From assembly GCA_023954415.1 (NCBI GenBank), contig JAMLIB010000003.1:124001-188000 (forward strand): 64,000 bases of DNA, in the 5' to 3' direction. The stretch's first letter is position 1. Each line of letters begins with the position of its first letter. The notes beneath the pieces were generated by a model. That model was given only the letters and a program-made list of their open reading frames with translations, did not search any database and was not told the DNA's origin. Positions 7,790 through 23,563 of the stretch are shown piece by piece. The position numbers were made by a program, and so were the translations under genes. The stretch comes from Trueperaceae bacterium. Its GTDB lineage: Bacteria > Deinococcota > Deinococci > Deinococcales > Trueperaceae.

Positions 7790-7927
7790 GCATGGAGGCG
7801 GCTTGCCTGTCGGCAGGCGCGCGGCACCCCAGAATGCGAGATCGTCCAAGGTGAGGCGGCGGCTCCCCGTCCGGTCGGTCGGCGGGTCCCGCCCCCGACT
7901 GTGACGGAAGCGTAAGAACCGCCCGCC

Positions 7928-7940
7928 TACACTGGTAGGC
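7928..7940 (+). promoter_or_regulatory. Leaderless-type -10 element for the GGDEF gene
   Basis: TACACT at 7928-7933 is followed by seven bases and then ATG 7941. Transcription would therefore begin at or next to the start codon. No good -35 box or ribosome-binding site is visible. TANNNT boxes just upstream of start codons are known in Deinococcus for leaderless mRNAs. Confidence 0.45.
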
Positions 7941-10900
7941 ATGACGCCGGAGTACCAGCGCGACGACCTGACCGGCGCCTTGGCCCGTGCCCATCTGGCC
8001 GGCGCCCTCGAACGCCTTGCCGCCGAACACGCCGCCACTGGCGCGCATCACGCGCTCGCGGTCCTCGACCTCGACCATCTGAAAGCCCTCAACGACGTCT
8101 ACGGCCACGCGACGGGCGACGCCGCGTTGCGGGCGGTGGCGGAACGGACCCTGCGCGTCCTGCGCGGTGGCGACCTGCTGTTCCGTTACGGTGGCGACGA
8201 GTTCGTCGTGCTCCTGCCCAACACGAACCGCGCGGAAGCGGAGACGGTCCTGCGCCGGGTCAACGAACAGGTCACCGGCGACCCCGTCGCCGGCGCGGCG
8301 TGGGTGACGATCGGCATCAGTATCGGAGCCGCCGCGAGCGACGAGACCGGAGGTCCTGACGGCCTCTTCGAACGCGCCGACGAGCGCGTGCGAAGCGCGA
8401 AGCGCGCCGGCCGCAACCGCGTCGTCATCGACGACTCGCAGCGCGCGACCGCCCGGTTCGAGCTCGCCGAGGCCCGCATCCTCGGTCGCGACGCGCAGCT
8501 CGCGACCCTCGACGCCTTCCTGACGGGCACCGACGGCGGGCAGCGCGTCTTGCGCGTCGCTGCGCAGCGGGGGGCAGGCGTGACGCGCTTCCTCGCCGAA
8601 GCGGGGGTGCGGGCTCGCCACGCCGGTCTCGTCGTGAGAGTCCTCGCGGGCGACCCGGCGGACACCAGCGTCCACCTCCGGGCGCTTGCGAGCGCCTACG
8701 CCAGCGGGAGCCGGCCTGGCGACGCCCTCGAGGACGACATCCGTGACCGCCTCCGCAACGACGCCGAGGCGCATGGGCTCCTGCTCGTGGCAACGGGCGC
8801 GCGGTGGCTCGATCCGGCCAGCGCCGGCCTGGTGGCGGAGAGCCTGCGGCGCGGCGGCACCAAGCTCGTCGAGGTCGTGTTCGACGGCGAGGCCTCGGCG
8901 TTCGGCGCCGACGGCCGCCTAGAGCTCGGGCCGCTCTCAGAAGCGGACGTGGCGAACTGGCTCGGCGCTGCCCTTGGCGCGAGGATCGCGGACCGGACGG
9001 CTTCCGAGCTGGCACGTGCCGGGGGCGGCTTGCCGGGCCGCATCGCTCCCCTGGTCCTCGATCTCCTGAGCGCCGGGGTCTTGCGTCGCGGCGACACGGA
9101 CTGGCATGCCGACCCTGCCAGGCTCCGCGAGCGCCTCGCTGGGCTTCGGGAAGCACAGACGCCCAAGGAGGCGCGTGGCCGGGCCCAGCTGGAGCTGCCG
9201 CGCTGGGAGGTGCCGCTCGTCGGTCGAGCGCGGTGGCTCGCCGCGACGGCGCCGCTGGTGCGCGACCAGCCGCTGGTCACCCTCGTGGGGCACGGCGGCT
9301 CCGGCAAGACGAGGCTGGCTGCCCAGCTGGCGCTCGACCTCGCCGCCGAACGGGAGCCGGACGCGCCGGACGGCACCTACTGGGTGGACCTGCGGGCGGT
9401 CGACTCGGCCGCGCGGCTGCCGGCCGCCATCGCCGAGACGCTCGACCTCCTGCGCGTCGACGACGTGGAGGCGCTCGCCGAACGCCTGGGCGGGGCGCGC
9501 ATGCGGCTCGTGCTCGACAACGCCGACGCGCTGGCCGACGAAGCCGGCGTGCTCTCGCGCCTGCTGCGGCGCTCACCCGGCCTGCGGCTCCTCGTGACCG
9601 CGCGCAGGCCGCTGCGCATCGTGGGTGAGCGCGCCATCGAGGTGCCGGAGCTGGCGGACACGGCGGCGCAGGAGCTCTTCAGGCAGGGCATGCGGCGTGT
9701 CGGGGCGGACGACCCGACCGACGACCAGCTCGCCGAGCTGGCCGCGGCCGTCGGGCGCGACCCCCTCGCCATCGAGCTTGCCGCGGCCTGGACGCGCCTA
9801 CTGTCGCCCGCCGAGCTGCTCGACGCGCTCGAGCAGCGCCCGGGCTTCCTGGCGAACACCCCCGATGGGAAGCCGCAGCCGCTCACCGAGCGGTTCATAG
9901 ACGCCACCCGCGGGCTCATGAGCAGCGCCGAGCGGCAGGCCCTCGGGACGCTGGCCCTCGTCCCGGGCGGCTTCCTGGCGGAGGACGGCCGGGCGGCCTC
10001 CGGTGCCTCCTCCTTCTTCCTGCTCGCCCTGCTCGAGCGCTCGCTCGTGCGCCGCGAGGGCGAACGCTACACGGTCCACGCCGTCATCGCCGAGCGCTTC
10101 AGGGCCGGGCTCGAGGACGAGGCGACCGCGCGCGACGCGGTGGCACGCGCGTACTCGGAGGTCGCGCGGCGACTCAACCGCCTCCCGAGCGCCGAGCGCA
10201 CGGCCCGCGGCTTCAAGCGCGTGGATTCCGAGAGGGCGAACCTGGAGTGGTCCTTCGCGTGGCTGGCTTCCCGCGCGGACAGCGCAGGCCGCGTGGCCCC
10301 TCGCGGAGCTCCTGCGCGGCTACTTCGACGTGCGCGGCTACTACCGGCAGGGGGCCGAGCTGTTCCAGCGCCTCGTGCCGACGTTGGCGGGCTGCGACGA
10401 CGCGGAGCTCCTCGGCTGGGCGCTCGAGTCCGTCGCCCTCTACCTCATGCGGCAGGAGGAGTTGGCGAAGGCCACGGACAAGATCCGTGAGGCCATAACG
10501 CTGCTCGAGGCCGGCGGTCGCACGCGCACGCTGAGCATGGCCCTGAACACCGCCGGCATCGTGGCGAGCCACGAGGATCGCGTGGACGACGCGCTCGGCT
10601 ACCTACTGGCCGCTGCCGAGATGCGCGCCGCCATGGGCGACGGGTTCGGCGAGGCGCAGTCGCGCGGCAACGTCGCCTTCCTGCTGGCGGGAACGGAGCG
10701 CTACGAGGAGGCGTTCCACGCCCTCGAAGCGGCGGCCGAGCGTTACCGCGAGGTCGGTCACGAGAGCGGTCTGGCGCTGGCGCTGGCGGGGATGGGGAGG
10801 CTGGCCAGCGAGCACGGGTTGCGACCGCACGCCGAGGCCCTTGCCCTCGTCAAGGAGGCGCAAGCCAAGGCCGAGCGGCTCGGCTTCGCCCACGGGGCGC

Positions 10901-12415: not shown

Positions 12416-12489
12416 GCCGCATCTAGAACCGGTTGCGGGCTTGCACCCGCGGACCTCTATACCAACTCCTAAGGGATGGTGGATCGACG

Positions 12490-13971
12490 ATGATCGAAAC
12501 CGCGCAAGAGCTCCTCAACTACGTCGGCGGGAAGTGGCAGCCCTCCCGCTCCGGCACGCACCAGGACGTCCGCAACCCGGCCACGGCCGCCACCATCGCC
12601 CGCGTCCCGTTGAGCGCGAGGGCGGAGGTCGACGAGGCCGTCAGGGCCGGCGTGGCAGGCTTCAGGCAGTGGCGCGAGACGCCCGTCATCGACCGCATCA
12701 AGCCCCTCTTCAAGCTCCGTGACCTCCTCATCGCCAACCTCGACGAGCTCGGCCGCACCATCACCAACGAGGCCGGCAAGACCTACGGCGAGAGCGTCGC
12801 CGAGATGCAGCGCGGCGTCGAGAACGTCGAGGTGGCGTGCGGCGCGCCGTACATGATGCAGGGGAGCAACAACGAGGACATCGCCCACGGCATCGACGAG
12901 CACATGATCCGGCAGCCCCTCGGGGTCGTTGCCGCCATCACGCCCTTCAACTTCCCGGGCATGATCCCCTTGTGGTTCCTGCCGTACGCGGTGGCCACCG
13001 GCAACTCCTTCCTCCTCAAGCCGAGCGAGAAGGTGCCCATGACCACGCAGCTCCTCTTCCGCCTCCTCGAGGAGGCCGGCTTCCCGGCCGGGGTCGTCGG
13101 GCTCGTCAACGGCGGCAAGGAGACGGTCGACGCCATCCTCGACCACCCCGACGTCAAGGCCGTGTCGTTCGTCGGCTCGACCTCGGTCGCCAAGTACATC
13201 TACGCGCGCGCCACGCAGAACGGCAAGCGCGCCCAGTGCCAGGGCGGCGCCAAGAACCCGGCCGTGATCATGCCCGACGCCGACATGGACATGTCCACCC
13301 GCATCATGGCCGACTCCGCCTTCGGCTGCGCCGGTCAGCGCTGCCTGGCGACGTCGGTCGCCATCACGGTGGGCGACGCCAGGCAGGAGTTCACGGACCG
13401 CATGGTGGCGGCCGCCGAGTCGCGCACGGTTGGCTACGGCCTCGACAAGTCGACCCAGATGGGCCCCGTCATCTCGGCCGAATCGAAGAGCCGCATCGCC
13501 GGCCTCATCGAGAAGGGCGTCAGCCAGGGCGCTCGCGTGCTCACCGGCGGCGCCGACGTGAACGTCGACGGCTTCGCGGACGGCTACTTCGTGCACGCCA
13601 CGTTGCTCGACGACGTTACCCCTGGCTCCGACATCGCCAAGACGGAGGTCTTCGGGCCCGTCCTCTCCATGATGCACGCGAGCTCCCTCGACGAGGCCAT
13701 CCAGATGGTCAACGACCGCGCCTACGGCAACCAGGCCTCCATCTTCACGACCTCCGGCAGCGCCGCCCGCCAGTTCCGCCATCAGGCCGTAGCCGGGAAC
13801 ATCGGCATCAACCTCGGCGTCGCCGCGCCCATGGCGTTCTTCCCCTTCAGCGGCTGGAGCGAGAGCTTCTTCGGCGACCTGCACGCGCAGGGCGCCCACG
13901 GGATCGAGTTCTTCACGCAGACGAAGGTCGTGGTGGAGCGCTGGCCCGAGCACTGGAGCCGCACGTTCTGA
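12490..13971 (+). CDS. mmsA: CoA-acylating (methyl)malonate-semialdehyde dehydrogenase
   Basis: 493 residues, the usual length. It has PFNFPGMIPLWFLPYAVATG (the MmsA version of the aldehyde dehydrogenase nucleotide-binding region), FVGSTSVAKYIY, and the catalytic cysteine in FGCAGQRCLATS (Cys285). MmsA converts malonate semialdehyde or methylmalonate semialdehyde plus CoA to acetyl- or propionyl-CoA, CO2 and NADH. Next to preT, preA and dihydropyrimidinase genes, its likely job is the last step of uracil/thymine breakdown after beta-alanine or beta-aminoisobutyrate transamination. I chose ATG 12490 because the conserved LLNYVGGKW begins soon after. The longer in-frame start at 12433 adds an unconserved leader that overlaps the promoter region. 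Confidence 0.93.
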   Translation: MIETAQELLNYVGGKWQPSRSGTHQDVRNPATAATIARVPLSARAEVDEAVRAGVAGFRQWRETPVIDRIKPLFKLRDLLIANLDELGRTITNEAGKTYGESVAEMQRGVENVEVACGAPYMMQGSNNEDIAHGIDEHMIRQPLGVVAAITPFNFPGMIPLWFLPYAVATGNSFLLKPSEKVPMTTQLLFRLLEEAGFPAGVVGLVNGGKETVDAILDHPDVKAVSFVGSTSVAKYIYARATQNGKRAQCQGGAKNPAVIMPDADMDMSTRIMADSAFGCAGQRCLATSVAITVGDARQEFTDRMVAAAESRTVGYGLDKSTQMGPVISAESKSRIAGLIEKGVSQGARVLTGGADVNVDGFADGYFVHATLLDDVTPGSDIAKTEVFGPVLSMMHASSLDEAIQMVNDRAYGNQASIFTTSGSAARQFRHQAVAGNIGINLGVAAPMAFFPFSGWSESFFGDLHAQGAHGIEFFTQTKVVVERWPEHWSRTF

Positions 13972-14124: not shown

Positions 14125-15558
14125 ATGGAGCATCACAAGCTGTCACTCGACCAGTTGCAGGACTCGTTCTCGGAGATCCATCCGCGTTACACGCCGAACG
14201 AGGCCACCGTCGAAGCCGAGCGCTGCCTCTACTGCTTCGACGCGCCCTGCATCAAGGCCTGCCCGACGAGCATCGACATCCCGACCTTCATCAGGCAGAT
14301 CGCCAACGACAACCTGACGGGCGCCGGCACGACCATCCTCGAGTCGAACATGATGGGCCACACCTGCGGGCGCGTCTGCCCCGTGGAGGAGCTCTGCGTC
14401 GGCGCCTGCGTACTCGGCAACGAACATAGGCCCATCGCCATCGGGCGGCTCCAGCGCTACGCCACCGACCACATCTTCGAGAACGACATCCAGCCGTTCG
14501 AGCTCGTGCCCGACACGGGCAAGCGCGTGGCGATCATCGGCGCCGGCCCCGCGGGCCTCAGCACGGCGGGCGAGCTCGCCAGGCGCGGCATCCGGGCCAC
14601 CGTCTTCGAGAAGAGGGAGCTGGCGGGCGGTCTCTCGACGTACGGCATCGTCGTGTTCCGCGAGCCGACGAACGTGGCGCTCGAGGAGGTCGGGTTCGTC
14701 GAGAAGCTGGGCGTGACGGTGCGCACGGGCGTCGAGGTCGGGCGCGACGTGCTGCCGGAGGACCTCCTGCGCGAGTACGACGCCGTTGTGCTCGCCGCCG
14801 GCACGGGCCGCGTGCCGCCGCTCGGCGTCCCGGGCGAGGGGCTCGAAGGCGTGGTCGAGGCCCTGCCCATGATCGCGGCCACGAAGCTGGCCGACAAGGA
14901 CGGCAAGGAGGCGCTCACGCGCATCCCGGTAGGCAACGAGGTCATCGTAGTCGGGGCCGGCAACACGGCCATCGACGCCGCCACCGTCGCCAAGCGCCTC
15001 GGCGCGGAGCGCGTGACGATGCTCTACCGCCGCGGTCGCGAGGAGATGAGCGCGTACGACCACGAGGTGGCGTTCGTCAGGGCCGAGGGCGTCGACATCC
15101 GCCTCCTCACCCAGCCCGTCGAGGTCCTCGGGGAGGGCGGGAAGGTCACCGGGGTGCGCTGCGTGCGTATGCGCCTTGGCGACCCCGACGCGAGCGGCAG
15201 GCGCCGCCCCGAGCCCATCCCCGGCAGCGAGTTCGTCATCCCGGCCGATCAGGTCATCAAGGCCATCGGCCAGGAGAAGCTCGTCGCCCTCTACGACGCC
15301 GTGGGCGTGGAGCACGCCTCGGGCTACGTGCGCACGGACGGCGAGCTGCGCACGAGTAACCCCAAGGTCTTCGCCGCCGGCGACTGCGTGCGCGCCACCG
15401 GCCAGGCGCTCACGGTCACCGCCTCGGAGGACGGCAAGATCGCGGCGCGCGCCATCGCCAGGCAGCTCGGCGTGGCCGAGCCGGTCCCCGCCAGGGACGA
15501 CACTCGCGGCCGTTTCCTGCACGCCACGGTCAACGAGTTCGGGAGGATCCATGGCTGA
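14125..15558 (+). CDS. preT: NAD-dependent dihydropyrimidine dehydrogenase, FAD/Fe-S subunit PreT
   Basis: 477 residues, homologous in layout to the glutamate synthase small subunit and the N-terminal half of mammalian dihydropyrimidine dehydrogenase. The N-terminus carries cysteine clusters for two [4Fe-4S] centres (CLYCFDAPCIKACP and CGRVCPVEELCVGAC). A Rossmann FAD motif follows (VAIIGAGPAGLSTAGELARR, about residue 132) and a second NAD(P)-binding motif (VIVVGAGNTAIDAA, about 274). With PreA it reduces uracil and thymine to the 5,6-dihydro forms with NADH. Its 3' end overlaps preA by 8 bp, which implies translational coupling and 1:1 assembly. Confidence 0.92.
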   Translation: MEHHKLSLDQLQDSFSEIHPRYTPNEATVEAERCLYCFDAPCIKACPTSIDIPTFIRQIANDNLTGAGTTILESNMMGHTCGRVCPVEELCVGACVLGNEHRPIAIGRLQRYATDHIFENDIQPFELVPDTGKRVAIIGAGPAGLSTAGELARRGIRATVFEKRELAGGLSTYGIVVFREPTNVALEEVGFVEKLGVTVRTGVEVGRDVLPEDLLREYDAVVLAAGTGRVPPLGVPGEGLEGVVEALPMIAATKLADKDGKEALTRIPVGNEVIVVGAGNTAIDAATVAKRLGAERVTMLYRRGREEMSAYDHEVAFVRAEGVDIRLLTQPVEVLGEGGKVTGVRCVRMRLGDPDASGRRRPEPIPGSEFVIPADQVIKAIGQEKLVALYDAVGVEHASGYVRTDGELRTSNPKVFAAGDCVRATGQALTVTASEDGKIAARAIARQLGVAEPVPARDDTRGRFLHATVNEFGRIHG

Positions 15559-16906
15559 CCTGACAACCAACTTCGCAGGCGTCGTTAGCCCGAACCCGTT
15601 CTGGCTCGCGTCGGCGCCGCCGACGAACTCCGCATACCAGATCAACAAGGCGTTCGAGTACGGCTGGGGCGGGGCAGTCTGGAAGACGATCGGCGACCCC
15701 GTGCTGAACGTGTGCAACCGCTACGGCCAGTTCGAGTACGGTCACCGCCGCCTCATCGCCATCAACAACGTCGAGCTCATCTCCGATCGCCCGATCGAGG
15801 TCAACCTCAAGGAGATCCGCGAGGTCAAGAAGCTCTGGCCGGACCGGGCCGTGGTCGTCTCCGCGATGGTCTCGTCCAACGAGGCCGCGTGGCGCAAGGT
15901 CGTGCAACAGATCGAGGACACGGGCGCCGACGCCATCGAGCTCAACTACGGCTGCCCGCACGGCATGAGCGAGCGCGGCATGGGCGCAGCCGTCGGGCAG
16001 GTGCCCGAGTACTGCGAGATGATCACGGGCTGGGTCACGGCCGCCGCCAGCATCCCGGTCATCGTGAAGCTGACGCCCAACGTCACCAACATCGTCCCGC
16101 CCGCCCACGCCGCCGTGAACGCCGGCGCGGACGGCATCTCGCTCATCAACACCATCAACTCCATCACGGGCGTCGACCTCGACAGCCTGGAGATCTTCCC
16201 GAACGTCGGCGGCAAGGGCAGCCACGGCGGCTACGCCGGCCCGGCCGCCAGGCCCATCGCCCTGCACATGCTCTCCCAGGTCGCCGCCGACCCGAAGGTC
16301 GCGGCGTCCGGCATCCCGATCTCCGGCATGGGCGGCATCGAGACGTGGCGCGACGCCGCCCAGTTCCTCCTCCTCGGCGCGACCAGCATGCAGGTCTGCA
16401 CGGCCGTGATGCACTACGGCTTCCGCATCATCCACGAGCTGTGCGACGGGCTCTCCAACTGGCTCGACGAGAAGGGCGCCGGCTCCATCTCCGAGTTCGT
16501 CGGCAAGTCCGTGCCCCGCATCGGCCACTTCGGCGACTTCGACCTCTCGTTCAAGACGGTCGCGGTCATCGACGAGGAGAAGTGCATCCAGTGCAACCTC
16601 TGCTACGTGGCCTGCGACGAGGGGGCGCACCAGTGCATCGACCTGACGAAGGACGGCGCGCGCGTGGACCCCGAGACCTACGCCGGCGCCGAGCTCCTGC
16701 AGCCGAAGGTGCGCGAGGAGGATTGCGTCGGCTGCGACCTCTGCAGCCTCGTGTGCCCGGTCGACGACTGCATCACCATGCAGGAGCGCCCCCGCGAGCG
16801 CGAGAGCTTCACCTGGAACGAGCTCGTGAGGACGCGGCCGGAAGTCACGACCGACTGGGACGCCATGGTCGCGTTCCGTCGGGAAGTGGGCATAGAGATC
16901 CACTGA
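15551..16906 (+). CDS. preA: NAD-dependent dihydropyrimidine dehydrogenase, FMN/Fe-S subunit PreA
   Basis: 451 residues. An N-terminal TIM barrel of the dihydroorotate dehydrogenase type binds FMN. LNYGCPHGMSERGMG holds the cysteine that matches the catalytic Cys of dihydropyrimidine dehydrogenase; the usual Ser just before it is Gly here. KLTPNVTNI and GISLINTINSITGVDLD are further active-site strands. The C-terminus has a 2x[4Fe-4S] ferredoxin (CIQCNLCYVAC and CVGCDLCSLVCPVDDC). Start ATG 15551 follows GGGAGG with 5-nt spacing and lies inside the preT 3' end. It is the pyrimidine-reducing half of the PreTA enzyme. Confidence 0.93.
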   Translation: MADLTTNFAGVVSPNPFWLASAPPTNSAYQINKAFEYGWGGAVWKTIGDPVLNVCNRYGQFEYGHRRLIAINNVELISDRPIEVNLKEIREVKKLWPDRAVVVSAMVSSNEAAWRKVVQQIEDTGADAIELNYGCPHGMSERGMGAAVGQVPEYCEMITGWVTAAASIPVIVKLTPNVTNIVPPAHAAVNAGADGISLINTINSITGVDLDSLEIFPNVGGKGSHGGYAGPAARPIALHMLSQVAADPKVAASGIPISGMGGIETWRDAAQFLLLGATSMQVCTAVMHYGFRIIHELCDGLSNWLDEKGAGSISEFVGKSVPRIGHFGDFDLSFKTVAVIDEEKCIQCNLCYVACDEGAHQCIDLTKDGARVDPETYAGAELLQPKVREEDCVGCDLCSLVCPVDDCITMQERPRERESFTWNELVRTRPEVTTDWDAMVAFRREVGIEIH

Positions 16907-16985: not shown

Positions 16986-18365
16986 GTGAGCCTGCTCATC
17001 AAGAACGGCGAGATAGTGACGGCGGCCGAGCGCATGCACGCCGACATCTACTGCGAGGGCGAGACCATCACGCGCATCGGCAAGGGGCTGGAAGCGCCTG
17101 CTGGCACGCGGGTCGTCGACGCGGCCGGCAAGTACGTCTTCCCCGGCTTCATCGACCCGCACGTGCACATCCATCTGCCGTTCATGGGCACCCTCACGAA
17201 GGACACGCACCGCACGGGCAGCCAGGCCGCGCTCGTCGGCGGCACGACCACCTACATCGAGATGCTCGCGCCCAGTCGGCACGAGGACCTCATGGCCGGC
17301 TACCGCCTCTGGAACGAGCTGGCGGAGGGCAACAGCGCCTGCGACTACACGTTCCACATCGGCGTGTCGAAGTACGACGCCGAGGCCGAGGCGCAGCTGC
17401 GCGAGATCGTCGCCGACGGCATGACGTCCTTCAAGGTCTTCCTCTCCTACAAGGGCTTCTTCGGCGTGAACGACGAGGAGCTCTTCCGCACGCTCACGCT
17501 GGCCAAGGAGCTGGGCGTCATCGTCACGGCCCACTGCGAGAACGACGAGCTAGTGGCGCAGCTGCAGGCGCAGCTCCTCGCCGCCGGCCGAACCGGACCG
17601 GAGTGGCACGAGCCGTCGCGGCCGGAACGGGTGGAGGCCGACGGCACCAACCACTTCGCGACGTTCCTGGAGATCACGGGCGCCAGGGGCTACGTGGTGC
17701 ACCTGAGCTGCGCGCCGGCGCTGGCGGCGGCACTGGCCGCCAAGGAGCGCGGCGTCTCCCTCGCCATCGAGTGCGTCGTGCCACACCTCGTCCTCGACAA
17801 GACTTACGCCGAGCGCCCCGATTTCGAGGGCGCCAAGTACGTCATGTCGCCGCCCCTGCGCGACAAGCGCAACCAGAAGCCGCTATGGGACGCGCTCGCC
17901 GCCGGCCTCATAGACACCGTCGCGACCGACCACGCCCCCTTCGACTTCAAGGGCCAGAAGGAGATGGGTCGCGGCGACTTCACGAAGATCCCCAACGGCA
18001 TCCCGACGATCGAGGACCGCGTGAACCTCCTCTACACCTACGGCGTCAGCCGCGGCAACCTCTCCCTCGAGCGCTTCGTCAGCGCCGCGAGCACGCGGGC
18101 CGCCCAGCTCTTCGGCCTCTATCCGCGCAAGGGCACCGTCGCGGTGGGCGCGGACGCCGACCTCGTCGTCTACGACCCCAACTATCGCGGCCGCATAACC
18201 GCGACGACCCAGGCGATGAACGTCGACTACTCCGGGTTCGAGGGCGTCGAGATCGACGGGCGCCCGAGCGTGGTGACGGTGCGCGGCGAGGTCGCCGCCG
18301 TGGACGGCAAGTTCGTCGGCGACCCCGGGCGCGGCAAGCTCCTCAGGCGCACGCCGGCCAGCTGA
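16986..18365 (+). CDS. hydA: Dihydropyrimidinase / D-hydantoinase
   Basis: 459 residues of the cyclic amidohydrolase family, cytosolic and dizinc. It has the metal motif GFIDPHVHIHLPFMG, the lysine to be carboxylated in TSFKVFLSYKGFFG, the HCEND histidine, VVHLSCA, and the aspartate in ATDHAPFDFKGQ. It opens the dihydropyrimidine ring to give N-carbamoyl-beta-alanine or N-carbamoyl-beta-aminoisobutyrate. GTG 16986 is the start, preceded by AAAGGA. It follows preA by 79 bp and precedes the ABC importer by 10 bp, so it appears co-transcribed. The next enzyme, beta-ureidopropionase, is not in the window. Confidence 0.92.
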   Translation: MSLLIKNGEIVTAAERMHADIYCEGETITRIGKGLEAPAGTRVVDAAGKYVFPGFIDPHVHIHLPFMGTLTKDTHRTGSQAALVGGTTTYIEMLAPSRHEDLMAGYRLWNELAEGNSACDYTFHIGVSKYDAEAEAQLREIVADGMTSFKVFLSYKGFFGVNDEELFRTLTLAKELGVIVTAHCENDELVAQLQAQLLAAGRTGPEWHEPSRPERVEADGTNHFATFLEITGARGYVVHLSCAPALAAALAAKERGVSLAIECVVPHLVLDKTYAERPDFEGAKYVMSPPLRDKRNQKPLWDALAAGLIDTVATDHAPFDFKGQKEMGRGDFTKIPNGIPTIEDRVNLLYTYGVSRGNLSLERFVSAASTRAAQLFGLYPRKGTVAVGADADLVVYDPNYRGRITATTQAMNVDYSGFEGVEIDGRPSVVTVRGEVAAVDGKFVGDPGRGKLLRRTPAS

Positions 18366-18375
18366 GGCGACCCAG

Positions 18376-19239
18376 GTGCCCGAGGCCCCCGTGATCATCG
18401 ACGTCCAGGACGTCAGCAAGCTCTTCCGCGTCGGCAAGGTCGAGGCGGTGGCGCTGCAGGACGCCAACCTGCAGATCCACGACGGCCAGTTCGTCAGCCT
18501 CATCGGCCCGTCCGGTTGCGGCAAGACGACGCTGATGCGCCTCGTCGCCGACCTCATCGAGCCGACGAGCGGCCGCATCACCGTGGCGGGCAAGTCGCCC
18601 AAGGAGGCACGGGCCGCGCGCGAGTACGGCTACGTGTTCCAAGCGCCCGCCCTCTACGACTGGCGCAACGTGCTCGCCAACGTCATGCTCCCGCTCGAGA
18701 TCATGGGGTGGCCGAAGGGTGAGCGCAGGGCCCGGGCCGAGGAGATGCTGCGCCTCGTCGGACTCGAGGGCTTCCACCGCTCCTACCCGTGGCAGCTCTC
18801 CGGCGGCATGCAGCAGCGCGTCTCGATAGCGCGGGCCCTCGCCTTCGACCCGAAGCTCCTCCTGATGGACGAGCCGTTCGGCGCGCTCGACGAGATCACG
18901 CGCGAGGTCATGAACTTCGAGCTCCTGCGGCTCTGGCGGCAGACGGGGAAGACGGTCGTGTTCGTCACCCACTCCATCGCCGAGGCCGTGTTCCTCTCGT
19001 CGCACATCGTCGTCATGACGGCCAGGCCGGGGAGGATCAGGGAGGTCATCGAGGTCGACCTGCCCTACCCCCGCGACCACGAGACGCGCGAATCCGAGCG
19101 CTTCTTCGAGCTCACCACGCGCGTGCGGGAGGCGTTGCGGCTCGGCAAGGAAGGCGAGGGTGACGTCGGCGGCGCTGCCTCCGGCGGCGGCAAGGCGGCC
19201 GGCGGGCCCGCCAAGACCCTGGCCAAGGTCGGTTACTGA
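18376..19239 (+). CDS. ABC importer ATPase (SsuB/TauB/ThiZ-type), probable pyrimidine uptake
   Basis: 287 residues with Walker A GPSGCGKTT, Q-loop YVFQAPALYDWRNVLANV, signature LSGGMQQRV, Walker B LLLMDEPFGALDE and the switch histidine in FVTHSIAEAV. This is the nitrate/sulfonate/thiamine-precursor importer subclass, which works with NMT1-like binding proteins. The last 35 residues are a Gly/Ala-rich tail. It starts at GTG 18376, ten bases after the dihydropyrimidinase stop. The locus suggests the cargo is uracil, thymine or a related base; this is inferred only from neighbours. Confidence 0.88.
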   Translation: MPEAPVIIDVQDVSKLFRVGKVEAVALQDANLQIHDGQFVSLIGPSGCGKTTLMRLVADLIEPTSGRITVAGKSPKEARAAREYGYVFQAPALYDWRNVLANVMLPLEIMGWPKGERRARAEEMLRLVGLEGFHRSYPWQLSGGMQQRVSIARALAFDPKLLLMDEPFGALDEITREVMNFELLRLWRQTGKTVVFVTHSIAEAVFLSSHIVVMTARPGRIREVIEVDLPYPRDHETRESERFFELTTRVREALRLGKEGEGDVGGAASGGGKAAGGPAKTLAKVGY

Positions 19240-19240
19240 C

Positions 19241-21241
19241 ATGGCGCGCGCAGCGGCGGACGGGGCCCGGGCGCCCGCCTGGCGCCGCACGCTCTCCGGC
19301 TGGGTACCCCTGGCGGTCGTGCTCGCCGTGCTCGTAGCGCTCATGTACCCGGTCGCGCTGCTGCTCGGCCTCCCGCTGGCGCGCACCCGCATGGACAACG
19401 TGGCCAACTGGGTGCGCGCCACGACGACCCCCAAGCCCCTGGCGGAGGCGCCCGCCGACGTCGGGGCGGGCGCGCCGGCCGGTGCGGAGCTGCGCTTCGG
19501 CGGCGCCGAGAGCCTAGCCACGGCGCGCTCGGTGCTCGTCTACGGCGACCGGCCAGTGGACGCCACCTACGACCTGGAGGACGGCGCCGCGCGCCTGCGC
19601 GACGCGGTGGCGGGGCCGCTCCTCGAGTGGGGCGAGGCGTTGACCGGCCCCCTCGACGCGCGTTCCCCCGGCCTCGGTGTCGCGGACCCCTCGGCGGACG
19701 CGGCGACGGGAGCCCGTGCCTCGGAGGGCGTCGCCGGCCACGTGTTCGCCCTGCCCGCGGGCGGGTGGGAGGCCCTCTACCTGGGCGACCGCCTCCTGGT
19801 GCCGGGTGCCGACGACGCCATCGAGCGCCCCGACGGCGTGCTGGCGGCGTTCACGTTCCCGGAGGCCGAGACCGGCCCCGTCCTCGTGAACGGGCAGCTG
19901 CTCCTCGAGGGCGAGGGCTTCGAGGCGAACGGTAGGCGCATCGAGCTGCGCTCGCCCGCGCCCTTCAACGCGAGCGTGCGCCGCGTCAGCGGCGACTACG
20001 CCGTGCTCGACGCCGCGGCCGGCACCATCGCTTTGGCCGAGGCGAGCGCGGAGCCGCCGCGCGCCGCTACGGCGACGCTGGCCGTCGTCGAGCGCCTGGT
20101 GGGGGAGGTCGACGGCGTCAACCGCGTCTTCCACTTGCAGCACGCCCCCCTAGTCGAGTCCGACCCCGGGAGGCGGATCATGCTCGAGGACGTCGAGCTC
20201 TCGCCCGCCGCCGAGAGGCCGGCCGAACGCGTCGACGGCGAGCGCAAGGCGTTCACTTTCACGAGCGACCGCGGGGTCGTCACGGTGAACGGGGCCGAGG
20301 CGCTGGAGGGGCGGGACTTCGGCCGGGCGGGGCCCGTCGTGACGTTCACGGTCGCGCCGCCGAGGAACGCGGCCCTCAGGCAGTACCCCGACTACGTCGT
20401 GAACGACCCGGCCGTGGGCGTCATCACCCTGGCCAAGGCGCCGGCGCCGGGCAGCCGCGTGTGGGCCGCCACCTACACCTACTACGACCACCCGGCCTGC
20501 GGCTCGAGCGAGATCGAATGCTTCCTCTCGATGCCGCAGCACCCCATGCCGTTCCCCCACTGGATCGCGAAGCGCATCCCCGCCTTCCTGACCAACTACC
20601 CGCTCTCCGACACGCGCAACGTCGTGCGTGCCACCCTGTACACGGCCGGCGGCACCCTCACGGCGCTCGCGCTCGGGGGCGTGCTCGGCGTGCTCCTCGC
20701 GATCGTCTTCGTGGCCATCCGGCCCCTCGAGCGCGCGCTCCTCCCCTGGGTCATCGCGTCGCAGACGGTCCCGATCATCGCCCTCGTCCCCGTGCTCCTG
20801 CTCCTGCTCGGCAACGCCGGCGTCACGGTGCAGACGAGCCTCGTGCCGGCCGCGCTCATCGGGGCGTACATAGCGTTCTTCCCGGTGACCGTCGGCACGG
20901 TGACGGGCCTGCGCTCCGTCGACCCGCTGTCGCTCGACCTCATGAAGAGCTACGCGTCCTCGCCGCTCCAGGTCTTCTGGAAGGTGCGGTTCCCCGCGGC
21001 GGTGCCCTACCTGTTCGTGAGCCTCAAGCTCGGCGCGGCCGCCGCGCTCGTCGGCGCGCTCGTCGCGGAGACGGAGTCGAACAACCGCCTGGGCCTCGGC
21101 TACGCCATCGTCGGCCAGGTGCAAGCCGGCAACGTCTCCGACGTCTGGATACTGCTGCTCATCTCCGCCGCCCTCGGCATCGGGCTCGTCGCCATCGTCG
21201 GCCTCCTCCAACGCTTCACCGCGCCCTGGGAGCGCCGCTGA
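19241..21241 (+). CDS. ABC importer permease with a roughly 380-residue extracytoplasmic repeat insert
   Basis: 666 residues against about 250-300 for the family. The ATG is one base after the preceding stop. One N-terminal membrane helix (about 20-46) is followed by residues 50-430 that are not membrane-like. Then comes a normal permease domain with several helices and an EAA loop (PLSLDLMKSYASSPLQVFWK). The insert holds two similar units of about 85 residues: one from AAFTFPEAE to GDYAVLDAAAGTIALAEA and one from KAFTFTSDR to PDYVVNDPAVGVITLAKA. Each has a V-N-G turn and a closing strand, so they look like duplicated beta-sandwich domains. It is probably periplasmic, where it could contact the binding protein or cell wall. 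The function of the insert is unknown. Confidence 0.82.
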   Translation: MARAAADGARAPAWRRTLSGWVPLAVVLAVLVALMYPVALLLGLPLARTRMDNVANWVRATTTPKPLAEAPADVGAGAPAGAELRFGGAESLATARSVLVYGDRPVDATYDLEDGAARLRDAVAGPLLEWGEALTGPLDARSPGLGVADPSADAATGARASEGVAGHVFALPAGGWEALYLGDRLLVPGADDAIERPDGVLAAFTFPEAETGPVLVNGQLLLEGEGFEANGRRIELRSPAPFNASVRRVSGDYAVLDAAAGTIALAEASAEPPRAATATLAVVERLVGEVDGVNRVFHLQHAPLVESDPGRRIMLEDVELSPAAERPAERVDGERKAFTFTSDRGVVTVNGAEALEGRDFGRAGPVVTFTVAPPRNAALRQYPDYVVNDPAVGVITLAKAPAPGSRVWAATYTYYDHPACGSSEIECFLSMPQHPMPFPHWIAKRIPAFLTNYPLSDTRNVVRATLYTAGGTLTALALGGVLGVLLAIVFVAIRPLERALLPWVIASQTVPIIALVPVLLLLLGNAGVTVQTSLVPAALIGAYIAFFPVTVGTVTGLRSVDPLSLDLMKSYASSPLQVFWKVRFPAAVPYLFVSLKLGAAAALVGALVAETESNNRLGLGYAIVGQVQAGNVSDVWILLLISAALGIGLVAIVGLLQRFTAPWERR

Positions 21242-22440
21242 TGGCCGCGCGCGTCTCCGGCACGGGCTCCTCGAGTGCCGGTCCCGACGCCGGCTCGCTC
21301 CGTGCCGCGCTCGCCTGGCGTCCGCACGTGCCGACGCTACTCATGCTCTGCGTGGCGGCGACGGGCCTCTTCGGGCCGTTCGTCGCGGGTGGCGACGCCT
21401 TGCTGCCGGCCGGCAGCGGGCTCGCCATCGGCTGCGTAGCGCTCCTGGTGGCGGCCTTGGTGCCCAGCGGCTTGGGCGGCCCCTGGACCGTGCCGCTGGC
21501 CACGCCGCTCGCCGTGTCGGCCGCGTTCCTCGCCCTCCTCGCGCAGCGCGGCCTCGCCGGCCCGGCCGGCTGGGGCTACTGGCTCACCCTCCTCGGGTCG
21601 TTGGTTGCCGCCGCCACCGCCGCCGGGCGCGTGAGCGTCATCGAGCTCGAGAGCGACGCCCCCAGGTGGCAGCACCGGGTTCAGCGGCTCGTGCCGGCCG
21701 CCACCGTCGCGTTCCTCGTCCTCCTGGCCTGGGAGGGCCTGGTCGTCGGCTCGCGCGTGCCCAAGGGGATCTTCCCGCGCGTCTCCGACATCTGGCTCGC
21801 CTTCCTCGGCACGTGGCGCGTGCTTCTGGCGGACGCCTACCTCACGTTCGTGAAGGAGGTCCTGTTCGGCTTCGCCGTCGGCCTCACGCTCGGCTTCCTG
21901 GTGGGCAGCGCCATCGCGTTCAGCCGCTTCCTGCAGCGGGGCTTCCTGCCGCTCGCCACCGCGTTCGGGGCCGTGCCCATCGTCGGCCTGGCGCCCGTCC
22001 TCGGGCGGGCCCTCGGCGTCGACTGGGAGTCGAAGGCGGCCGTCGTCGTCATCGTCACGTTCTTCCCGGTGGTCCTCAACACGGTGCAGGGGCTCACGCT
22101 CGTCGACCCGCTCAAGCTCGAGCTCCTGCGCTCCTACGGCGCGCGGCCCCTCACCGTCTTCCTCAAGCTGCGCGTCCCGAACGCCCTGCCGTACGTCTTC
22201 AACGCTCTGAAGGTCGCGGTCGTCGTCGGCGTCGTGAGCGTCATCGTGGCCGAGTTCCTCATCCCCGGCCCGCCCAACGGCCTCGGCCAACGCATCAGCC
22301 TCTCGGCGCACCGCGGGGCGTTCGACATCGTGTTCGCGGCCATCCTCGTGTCGAGCCTCATCTCCATGGCCCTCTACTGGGCCGTCGGCCTGCTCGAGCG
22401 GGCCTTCACGGCATGGCACCCGTCGACGAGGGGGTCATAG
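21241..22440 (+). CDS. ABC importer permease, second subunit
   Basis: 399 residues, overlapping the previous stop by one base. Residues about 30-155 form extra hydrophobic helices (TLLMLCVAATGLFGPFVAGG and others). They precede the conserved BPD permease domain, which contains an EAA loop (PLKLELLRSYGARPLTVFLK) and a terminal helix ending in LLERAFTAW. Two different permease subunits imply a heterodimeric transport channel. The added helices are absent from typical SsuC/ThiX proteins. The gene belongs to the mmsA-to-binding-protein operon. Confidence 0.85.
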   Translation: MAARVSGTGSSSAGPDAGSLRAALAWRPHVPTLLMLCVAATGLFGPFVAGGDALLPAGSGLAIGCVALLVAALVPSGLGGPWTVPLATPLAVSAAFLALLAQRGLAGPAGWGYWLTLLGSLVAAATAAGRVSVIELESDAPRWQHRVQRLVPAATVAFLVLLAWEGLVVGSRVPKGIFPRVSDIWLAFLGTWRVLLADAYLTFVKEVLFGFAVGLTLGFLVGSAIAFSRFLQRGFLPLATAFGAVPIVGLAPVLGRALGVDWESKAAVVVIVTFFPVVLNTVQGLTLVDPLKLELLRSYGARPLTVFLKLRVPNALPYVFNALKVAVVVGVVSVIVAEFLIPGPPNGLGQRISLSAHRGAFDIVFAAILVSSLISMALYWAVGLLERAFTAWHPSTRGS

Positions 22441-22513: not shown

Positions 22514-23563
22514 ATGAAACGGATGGTCCAAGCACTAGCCGCGCTCCTACTCTTGCTCGCGCCGGTGGGGCTCGCCCAGAACCTCATCCCCATCAACTTC
22601 CAGTCGAAGTGGTTCCCGCAGGCGCAGTTCGCCGGCTACTTCGTGGCGCAGGACAAGGGCTTCTACGCGGAAGAAGGCCTCGACGTGACGGTGCTCGACG
22701 GCGGTAACGTCAACCCGACCGTCGCCGTGGCGTCCGGCAACGCCGACTTCGGCACGGACTGGGTGGCCAACATCCTCACGCAGCGCGACCAGGGCCTCGA
22801 GGTCGTCAACATCGCCCAGATCTACCAGACCTCCGGCTACCGCCTCGTGGCGCTCAAGAGCTCCGGCATCGAGACGATCGCCGACATGGCCGGCCGCAAG
22901 GTCGGCGTGTGGGCGTTCGGCAACGAGTTCGCGGCCGAGGCCGTGTTCTCCGCCGCCGGGCTGACCTCCAACCTCGACCCGACCGTGACCAGCCCGGACG
23001 TTGACGCCGTCGTGTACGCCTTCGACCCGTCGCTCGTGTTCCCCAACGAGGTGGACGTGGCGAGCGCCATGACCTACAACGAGCTCGATCAGATCGTCGG
23101 CCTCGGCTACGACCTCGACACCCTCTCGATCCTCGACCCGGCTAGCATCGGCGCCGACCTCCTCGAGGACAGCCTCTTCGCCACCCCCGCCACGCTGGCC
23201 GCCACGAACTTCAAGGGCTCCGGGCTCACGGGCGCCGAGGTGGCGCAGCGCTTCCTGCGCGCCTCCATCCGCGGCTGGGAGTACGCCGTCGCCAACCAGG
23301 ACGAGGCCGTGCAGATCGTCCTCTCGCACTGCGGCGACACGTGCGCCGGCTCCGGCAGCCGCCAGAGCCCGCTCATCCACCAGACCTGGCAGATGGCCGA
23401 GGTCGCCAAGCTGGTCAAGCCGACCGCCGACACGCACGTCGGCGCCCTCGACCGCGCCGCGTTCGAGCGCTCCGTCAACCTCCTCGTCGAGGTCGGCCTC
23501 ATCAAGCAGGCCTACACCTGGGAGCAGGCGGTCGACCCGAGCATCTACGACGCCGTCGACTGA
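22514..23563 (+). CDS. NMT1/THI5-like (ThiY-type) periplasmic substrate-binding protein
   Basis: 349 residues with a Sec signal peptide (MKRMVQALAALLLLLAPVGLAQ). The mature part starts with INFQSKWFPQAQFAGYFVAQ and DKGFYAEEGLDVTVLDGG, the hallmark of NMT1/ThiY-like pyrimidine-binding proteins. The family binds hydroxymethylpyrimidine, riboflavin and other flat heterocycles, which fits delivery of pyrimidine bases to the neighbouring catabolic enzymes. The start has a strong GGGAGGTAACG ribosome-binding site. It is the last gene of the operon and is closed by the terminator at 23588. The precise ligand cannot be read from sequence. Confidence 0.87.
   Translation: MKRMVQALAALLLLLAPVGLAQNLIPINFQSKWFPQAQFAGYFVAQDKGFYAEEGLDVTVLDGGNVNPTVAVASGNADFGTDWVANILTQRDQGLEVVNIAQIYQTSGYRLVALKSSGIETIADMAGRKVGVWAFGNEFAAEAVFSAAGLTSNLDPTVTSPDVDAVVYAFDPSLVFPNEVDVASAMTYNELDQIVGLGYDLDTLSILDPASIGADLLEDSLFATPATLAATNFKGSGLTGAEVAQRFLRASIRGWEYAVANQDEAVQIVLSHCGDTCAGSGSRQSPLIHQTWQMAEVAKLVKPTADTHVGALDRAAFERSVNLLVEVGLIKQAYTWEQAVDPSIYDAVD

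Follow-up and report, generated by a model that had tools for sequence, protein, structure and literature searches.

MalF is the best-known case of a permease that uses a large extramembrane domain to help hold its binding protein. The P2 domain of MalF spans residues 91-271, and one of its segments directly contacts MalE (PMC3150292). Pfam places P2 (PF14785) at residues 100-260 of Escherichia coli MalF, ahead of the channel domain (PF00528) at 298-501. A second point of comparison comes from the beta modules of phage tails (TSP4/gp10-like), which are trimeric. The XD domains of TSP4-N serve to bind proteins to one another, and the fold of XD1 is also found in glycan-binding domains (PMC8825819).

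Here we analyse an importer permease from a Trueperaceae bacterium that carries a large insert, about 372 residues long, between its first membrane helix and its channel domain. The insert consists of two tandem copies (X and Y) of a module of about 110 residues, plus half a module. The gene, hereafter permease 1, lies in a window of 64,000 nucleotides, that is, the whole stretch of DNA analysed (Table 1). Our literature search turned up MalF P2 and TSP4-N, and nothing on this insert.

Table 1. Features of the importer operon and of permease 1 in the window
Feature	Residues	Coordinates	Strand	Basis and remarks
preT-like gene		14125-15558	+	Family resemblance only
preA		15551-16906	+	NCBIfam PreA, above cut-off
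Dihydropyrimidinase gene		16986-18365	+	NCBIfam, above cut-off
ABC ATPase of the importer		18376-19239	+	PF00005; conserved order
Permease 1 gene, with insert	666 aa	19241-21241	+	PF00528; orthologs in 46/111 Deinococcota genomes
First transmembrane helix	13-52	19277-19396	+	AlphaFold2 helix 13-52; hydropathy peak 24-42
Whole extramembrane insert	47-418	19379-20494	+	Missing from 8 aligned other-family orthologs, present in Trueperaceae
Weak half-unit	ca. 81-124	19481-19612	+	hhalign to Y, 46%; strands 83-86, 97-101, 110-113, 116-119
Beta unit X	166-282	19736-20086	+	hhalign to Y; 12 strands
Beta unit Y	284-418	20090-20494	+	hhalign to X; 12 strands; sequence neighbour of the channel domain
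Cysteine pair directly after the insert	C420, C427	20498-20521	+	Invariant in 25/25 orthologs, insert-bearing or insert-free
Channel domain PF00528	479-662	20675-21226	+	Pfam; structural match to CmpB/NrtB permeases
Permease 2, without such an insert		21241-22440	+	PF00528; hydropathy
Substrate-binding protein, NMT1 type		22514-23563	+	PF09084; signal peptide without lipobox (alignment)

Permease 1 and its operon

The sole Pfam match in permease 1 lies at the C-terminal end and is to the channel domain PF00528 (62.2 bits vs a cut-off of 26.4); together with the full importer operon, this identifies the protein as a type I ABC importer permease (BPD_transp_1). Its most likely start is ATG 19241, which sits one base past the stop codon of the ATPase gene and thus makes GTG 19160, the start taken by the ORF finder, less likely. 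The first helix stays helical past the membrane in the AlphaFold2 model. The preliminary description had put the insert at 19390-20545, with about 380 residues, which is close to the limits found here (19379-20494). The two cysteines that follow it may form a disulfide in an external loop.

Insert-bearing and insert-free genomes share the order preT-preA-dihydropyrimidinase-ATPase-permease 1-permease 2-binding protein in every case in which the stretch is complete. The earlier designation as a pyrimidine importer, here a putative one, is supported by this gene context, with the preT-like, PreA and dihydropyrimidinase genes upstream. Also upstream, judging from the sequence alone, a frame at 12427-13968 (+) resembles aldehyde dehydrogenases of the methylmalonate-semialdehyde type, an activity that would fit pyrimidine catabolism. 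Farther away, a long frame at 7905-10487 (+) opens with what looks by eye like a GGDEF sequence. Permease 2 is extended at its N-terminus, where several additional hydrophobic segments precede the channel domain. The binding proteins (that of the window, 22514-23563, and L064-L078) differ consistently near their N-terminus, with LDGGNVNPT in insert-bearing vs LLPxGDxxP in insert-free lineages, perhaps a substrate difference.

Two tandem beta units and a half-unit

We built unit profiles from 17 Trueperaceae sequences, with 15 rows for X and 17 for Y. In profile-profile comparison (hhalign), X matches Y with a probability of 99.6% (E 2.8e-24) and 39% identity over 104 columns, while 100 column-shuffled copies of Y reach a probability of at most 2.5%. 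The duplication recognised in the preliminary description is therefore real, although the repeat unit is not of 85 residues but of about 105-115, because X and Y match across 104 columns. What had been noticed between the repeats as a third partial motif corresponds to the first half of Y and has its counterpart in the first half of X. A further, weak half-unit does appear elsewhere, ahead of X in the N-terminal part of the insert, with a profile probability of 46%. Two motifs, ERPxERVDG and RNAxLRQYPDY, are conserved in the insert.

We modelled the whole permease with AlphaFold2 from a 25-row alignment; the model has a mean pLDDT of 88.1 and a pTM of 0.68, with values mostly of about 90-96 in X and Y and low-confidence stretches at residues 1-5 and 141-162. 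The insert is all-beta in this model, as had been anticipated, and the twelve strands of X (168-170 to 274-285) and the twelve of Y (296-298 to 407-418) follow each other in the same order. Y folded alone with its leading strand gives a pLDDT of 90.4 and a pTM of 0.81. The beta fold of the insert is thus confidently predicted.

Distribution, history and selection

A channel-domain search of 111 Deinococcota genomes retrieved permease 1 orthologs from 46 of them, 18 from Trueperaceae and 28 from three other families. The comparison across Deinococcota, which the preliminary description had proposed, gave the following pattern: the insert, or at least Y, is present in all 18 Trueperaceae orthologs and in none of the 28 from elsewhere, and a short loop replaces it in the eight of these 28 that were aligned. 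Trueperaceae members without the insert also lack a permease 1 ortholog at the threshold used. In one genome (G012) the gene is split over two contigs, and genus g2 (G006 and G022) keeps only Y. As a side observation, about three additional residues occur in the channel domain of permeases that bear the insert (VTVQTS, where insert-free relatives have VQG), and a long branch separates this domain from that of the insert-free relatives.

The unit profile hits the 18 Trueperaceae genomes with an ortholog and no others, and every match among the 111 genomes falls in permease 1; the possibility that the insert also occurs as free-standing domains, raised earlier, thus found no example in Deinococcota, the group covered by this search. 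A scan of a wider collection used exact peptide patterns, which reach close relatives only. Neither the insert nor the unit had a relative in the PDB by phmmer, nor did the 17-row insert profile; likewise, phage records, plasmid records and viral contigs yielded no match, and NCBIfam returned nothing for the insert.

In the unit tree, X and Y each form one clade (100/99), and the clade of Y includes the only unit that genus g2 has. The duplication therefore predates the Trueperaceae sampled here, with a loss of X and of the N-terminal part in g2; the same position in the tree rules out the g2 single unit as the ancestral state. The permease tree does not settle the order of the genera.

Across the Trueperaceae family, mean pairwise identity is 77% in the channel domain, 51% in Y, 44% in X and 34% in the N-terminal part. 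In five close pairs, dN/dS is 0.03-0.14 in the channel domain, 0.10-0.26 in Y, 0.15-0.38 in X and 0.28-0.57 in the N-terminal part. The insert is, then, a selected protein domain under purifying selection, strongest in Y. The preliminary description had considered that relatives might lack the insert and that its frame might be an annotation artefact: relatives from other families do lack it, but the conservation of the frame across 18 genomes, at dN/dS values below 1, rules out an artefact.

Possible roles of the insert

Because of where it lies, its restriction to one of the two permeases and its conservation, we take the insert for a lineage-specific docking platform, comparable to MalF P2, for a soluble binding protein; resting on analogy, this proposal has in our estimation about an even chance of being right. 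Of the three functions put forward in the preliminary description (docking of the binding protein, sensing of a ligand and anchoring to the cell wall), docking is the best supported, by the same analogy. General permease topology leads us to infer that the loop, and with it the insert, projects into the periplasm. There it would keep the substrate-binding protein, which is soluble, positioned above the channel and help to align it during delivery. Y, the best conserved unit and the one kept in every member, would be the part that chiefly touches the binding protein or the permease, and X and the N-terminal part would act as a variable spacer or a secondary contact.

Docking is favoured by the P2-like position, the confident beta fold, the low dN/dS, the presence of Y in 18/18 orthologs and a weak match to TSP4-N. 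In addition, no other membrane tether is apparent, since the binding protein of the operon lacks a lipobox. However, insert-free relatives with the same synteny have lipobox-free binding proteins too; a soluble binding protein therefore does not require the insert. Also against docking, the binding-protein alignment contains no insertion that marks the insert-bearing lineage and no feature that pairs with the insert. Nor did our tests reveal homology between the insert and MalF P2: PF14785 matches neither the window protein, nor 17 inserts, nor the whole genome, while it does match the E. coli MalF control, and a direct profile comparison (hhalign) gives 0.1%. On these sequence comparisons, the insert appears unrelated to MalF P2.

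The insert could instead bind peptidoglycan, an S-layer or another envelope glycan, as an anchor or spacer that fixes the transporter in the envelope, which we consider unlikely. One relative's insert (L018) passes the Pfam cut-off for CBM_X2 (PF03442; E 8.6e-8), and the best PDB match of Y is TSP4-N, whose XD1 fold is common to glycan-binding domains (PMC8825819). The CBM_X2 match, the only one to pass, is nevertheless half-length (42 of 83 positions); there is no full-length match to this family, and the window protein has none at all. The TSP4 match of Y is also weak (E 0.1, probability 0.77), no known wall-binding family was found in the insert, and the insert is confined to one transporter.

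The insert might also be a decoration of this lineage that does little and persists chiefly because it folds and leaves transport unharmed. This reading is in keeping with the faster evolution of the insert than of the channel domain, fastest in the N-terminal part, with the loss of that part and of X in genus g2, and with other-family relatives that keep the same operon without insert. It fits poorly with a dN/dS well below 1 in every part, the retention of Y by all Trueperaceae orthologs and the conservation of ERPxERVDG and RNAxLRQYPDY, and we hold it to be improbable.

The phage tail resemblances bear on a further alternative, in which the beta units would join transporters, or both halves of the complex, as XD domains of phage tails do. 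The best non-ABC matches of the model and of Y are indeed phage tailspike, baseplate or tail proteins. TSP4 of phage CBA120 is the best such PDB match of the full permease 1 model (E 7e-3), and it also comes first, weakly (E 0.15), when the unit profile is compared with the PDB by sequence. Among viral models, baseplate and tail proteins were retrieved with a best E of 3.5e-3, from a library that can return viral proteins alone. PHROG tail-fibre matches occur in single relatives, but they are short, the sequence matches extending over just 30-50 residues, and Y has no match below E 0.001. A role in assembly is, in our view, a distinctly doubtful reading.

Other resemblances are of the same order. 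DUF2460 (PF09343) reaches at best 22.5 bits vs a cut-off of 30.4 among the inserts of relatives and does not match the window protein; like CBM_X2, it gives hairpin-sized matches in some relatives' inserts only. Hairpin-sized or weak matches of these kinds (phage tail/baseplate, CBM_X2, DUF2460) do not establish membership. As a long shot, an ancestral Trueperaceae permease may have acquired, in a single event, a beta module akin to those that assemble phage tails and baseplates; after duplication there, the module would now serve the importer as a platform for protein docking.

Finally, direct binding of the substrate or of a signal by the insert, which would make it a regulatory sensor or gate of the transporter, is hardly credible: the insert lies outside the membrane and adjoins the channel, but it matches no known ligand-binding or sensor domain, and its all-beta module pattern has no recognisable binding-cleft fold.

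Comparison with known systems

The consecutive beta modules of the insert recall those of phage CBA120 TSP4 (XD) and of T4 gp10-like tail proteins, from which it differs in that the scores are weak (E 7e-3 to 0.15), the rmsd is high and there is no membership at the sequence level. The channel domain has its best structural matches in CmpB and NrtB (E 4e-8), of the NrtB/CmpB/SsuC/TauC type, and NCBIfam similarity to SaoP, SsuC, NtrB and TauC, all below the cut-offs; the solved permeases of the CmpB/NrtB type that matched have about 250 residues, without room for such an insert. The nearest relatives are also short, 284-307 aa in the insert-free Deinococcota orthologs and 294 aa in the plasmid-borne permeases of Azospirillum and Sinorhizobium. 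The earlier statement that permeases of this class normally lack such domains thus applies to these relatives, although MalF has P2 in an equivalent place.

Indeed, as in MalF, a large domain stands here just before PF00528, after the preceding helix, and only one permease of the two carries it (MalF vs MalG; permease 1 vs permease 2). The systems differ in that P2 consists of one domain, some 160-180 residues long, whereas the insert has two repeated units and a half, and in that MalF belongs to another subfamily of type I importers. If the insert does dock the binding protein, it would be a second, unrelated solution, made of tandem repeats, at the position equivalent to that of MalF P2 and in another subfamily, and this loop would then look like a general site for adding docking domains. 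Permeases with no insert, with one unit and with two units form a natural series in one synteny, which makes the role of the insert directly testable.
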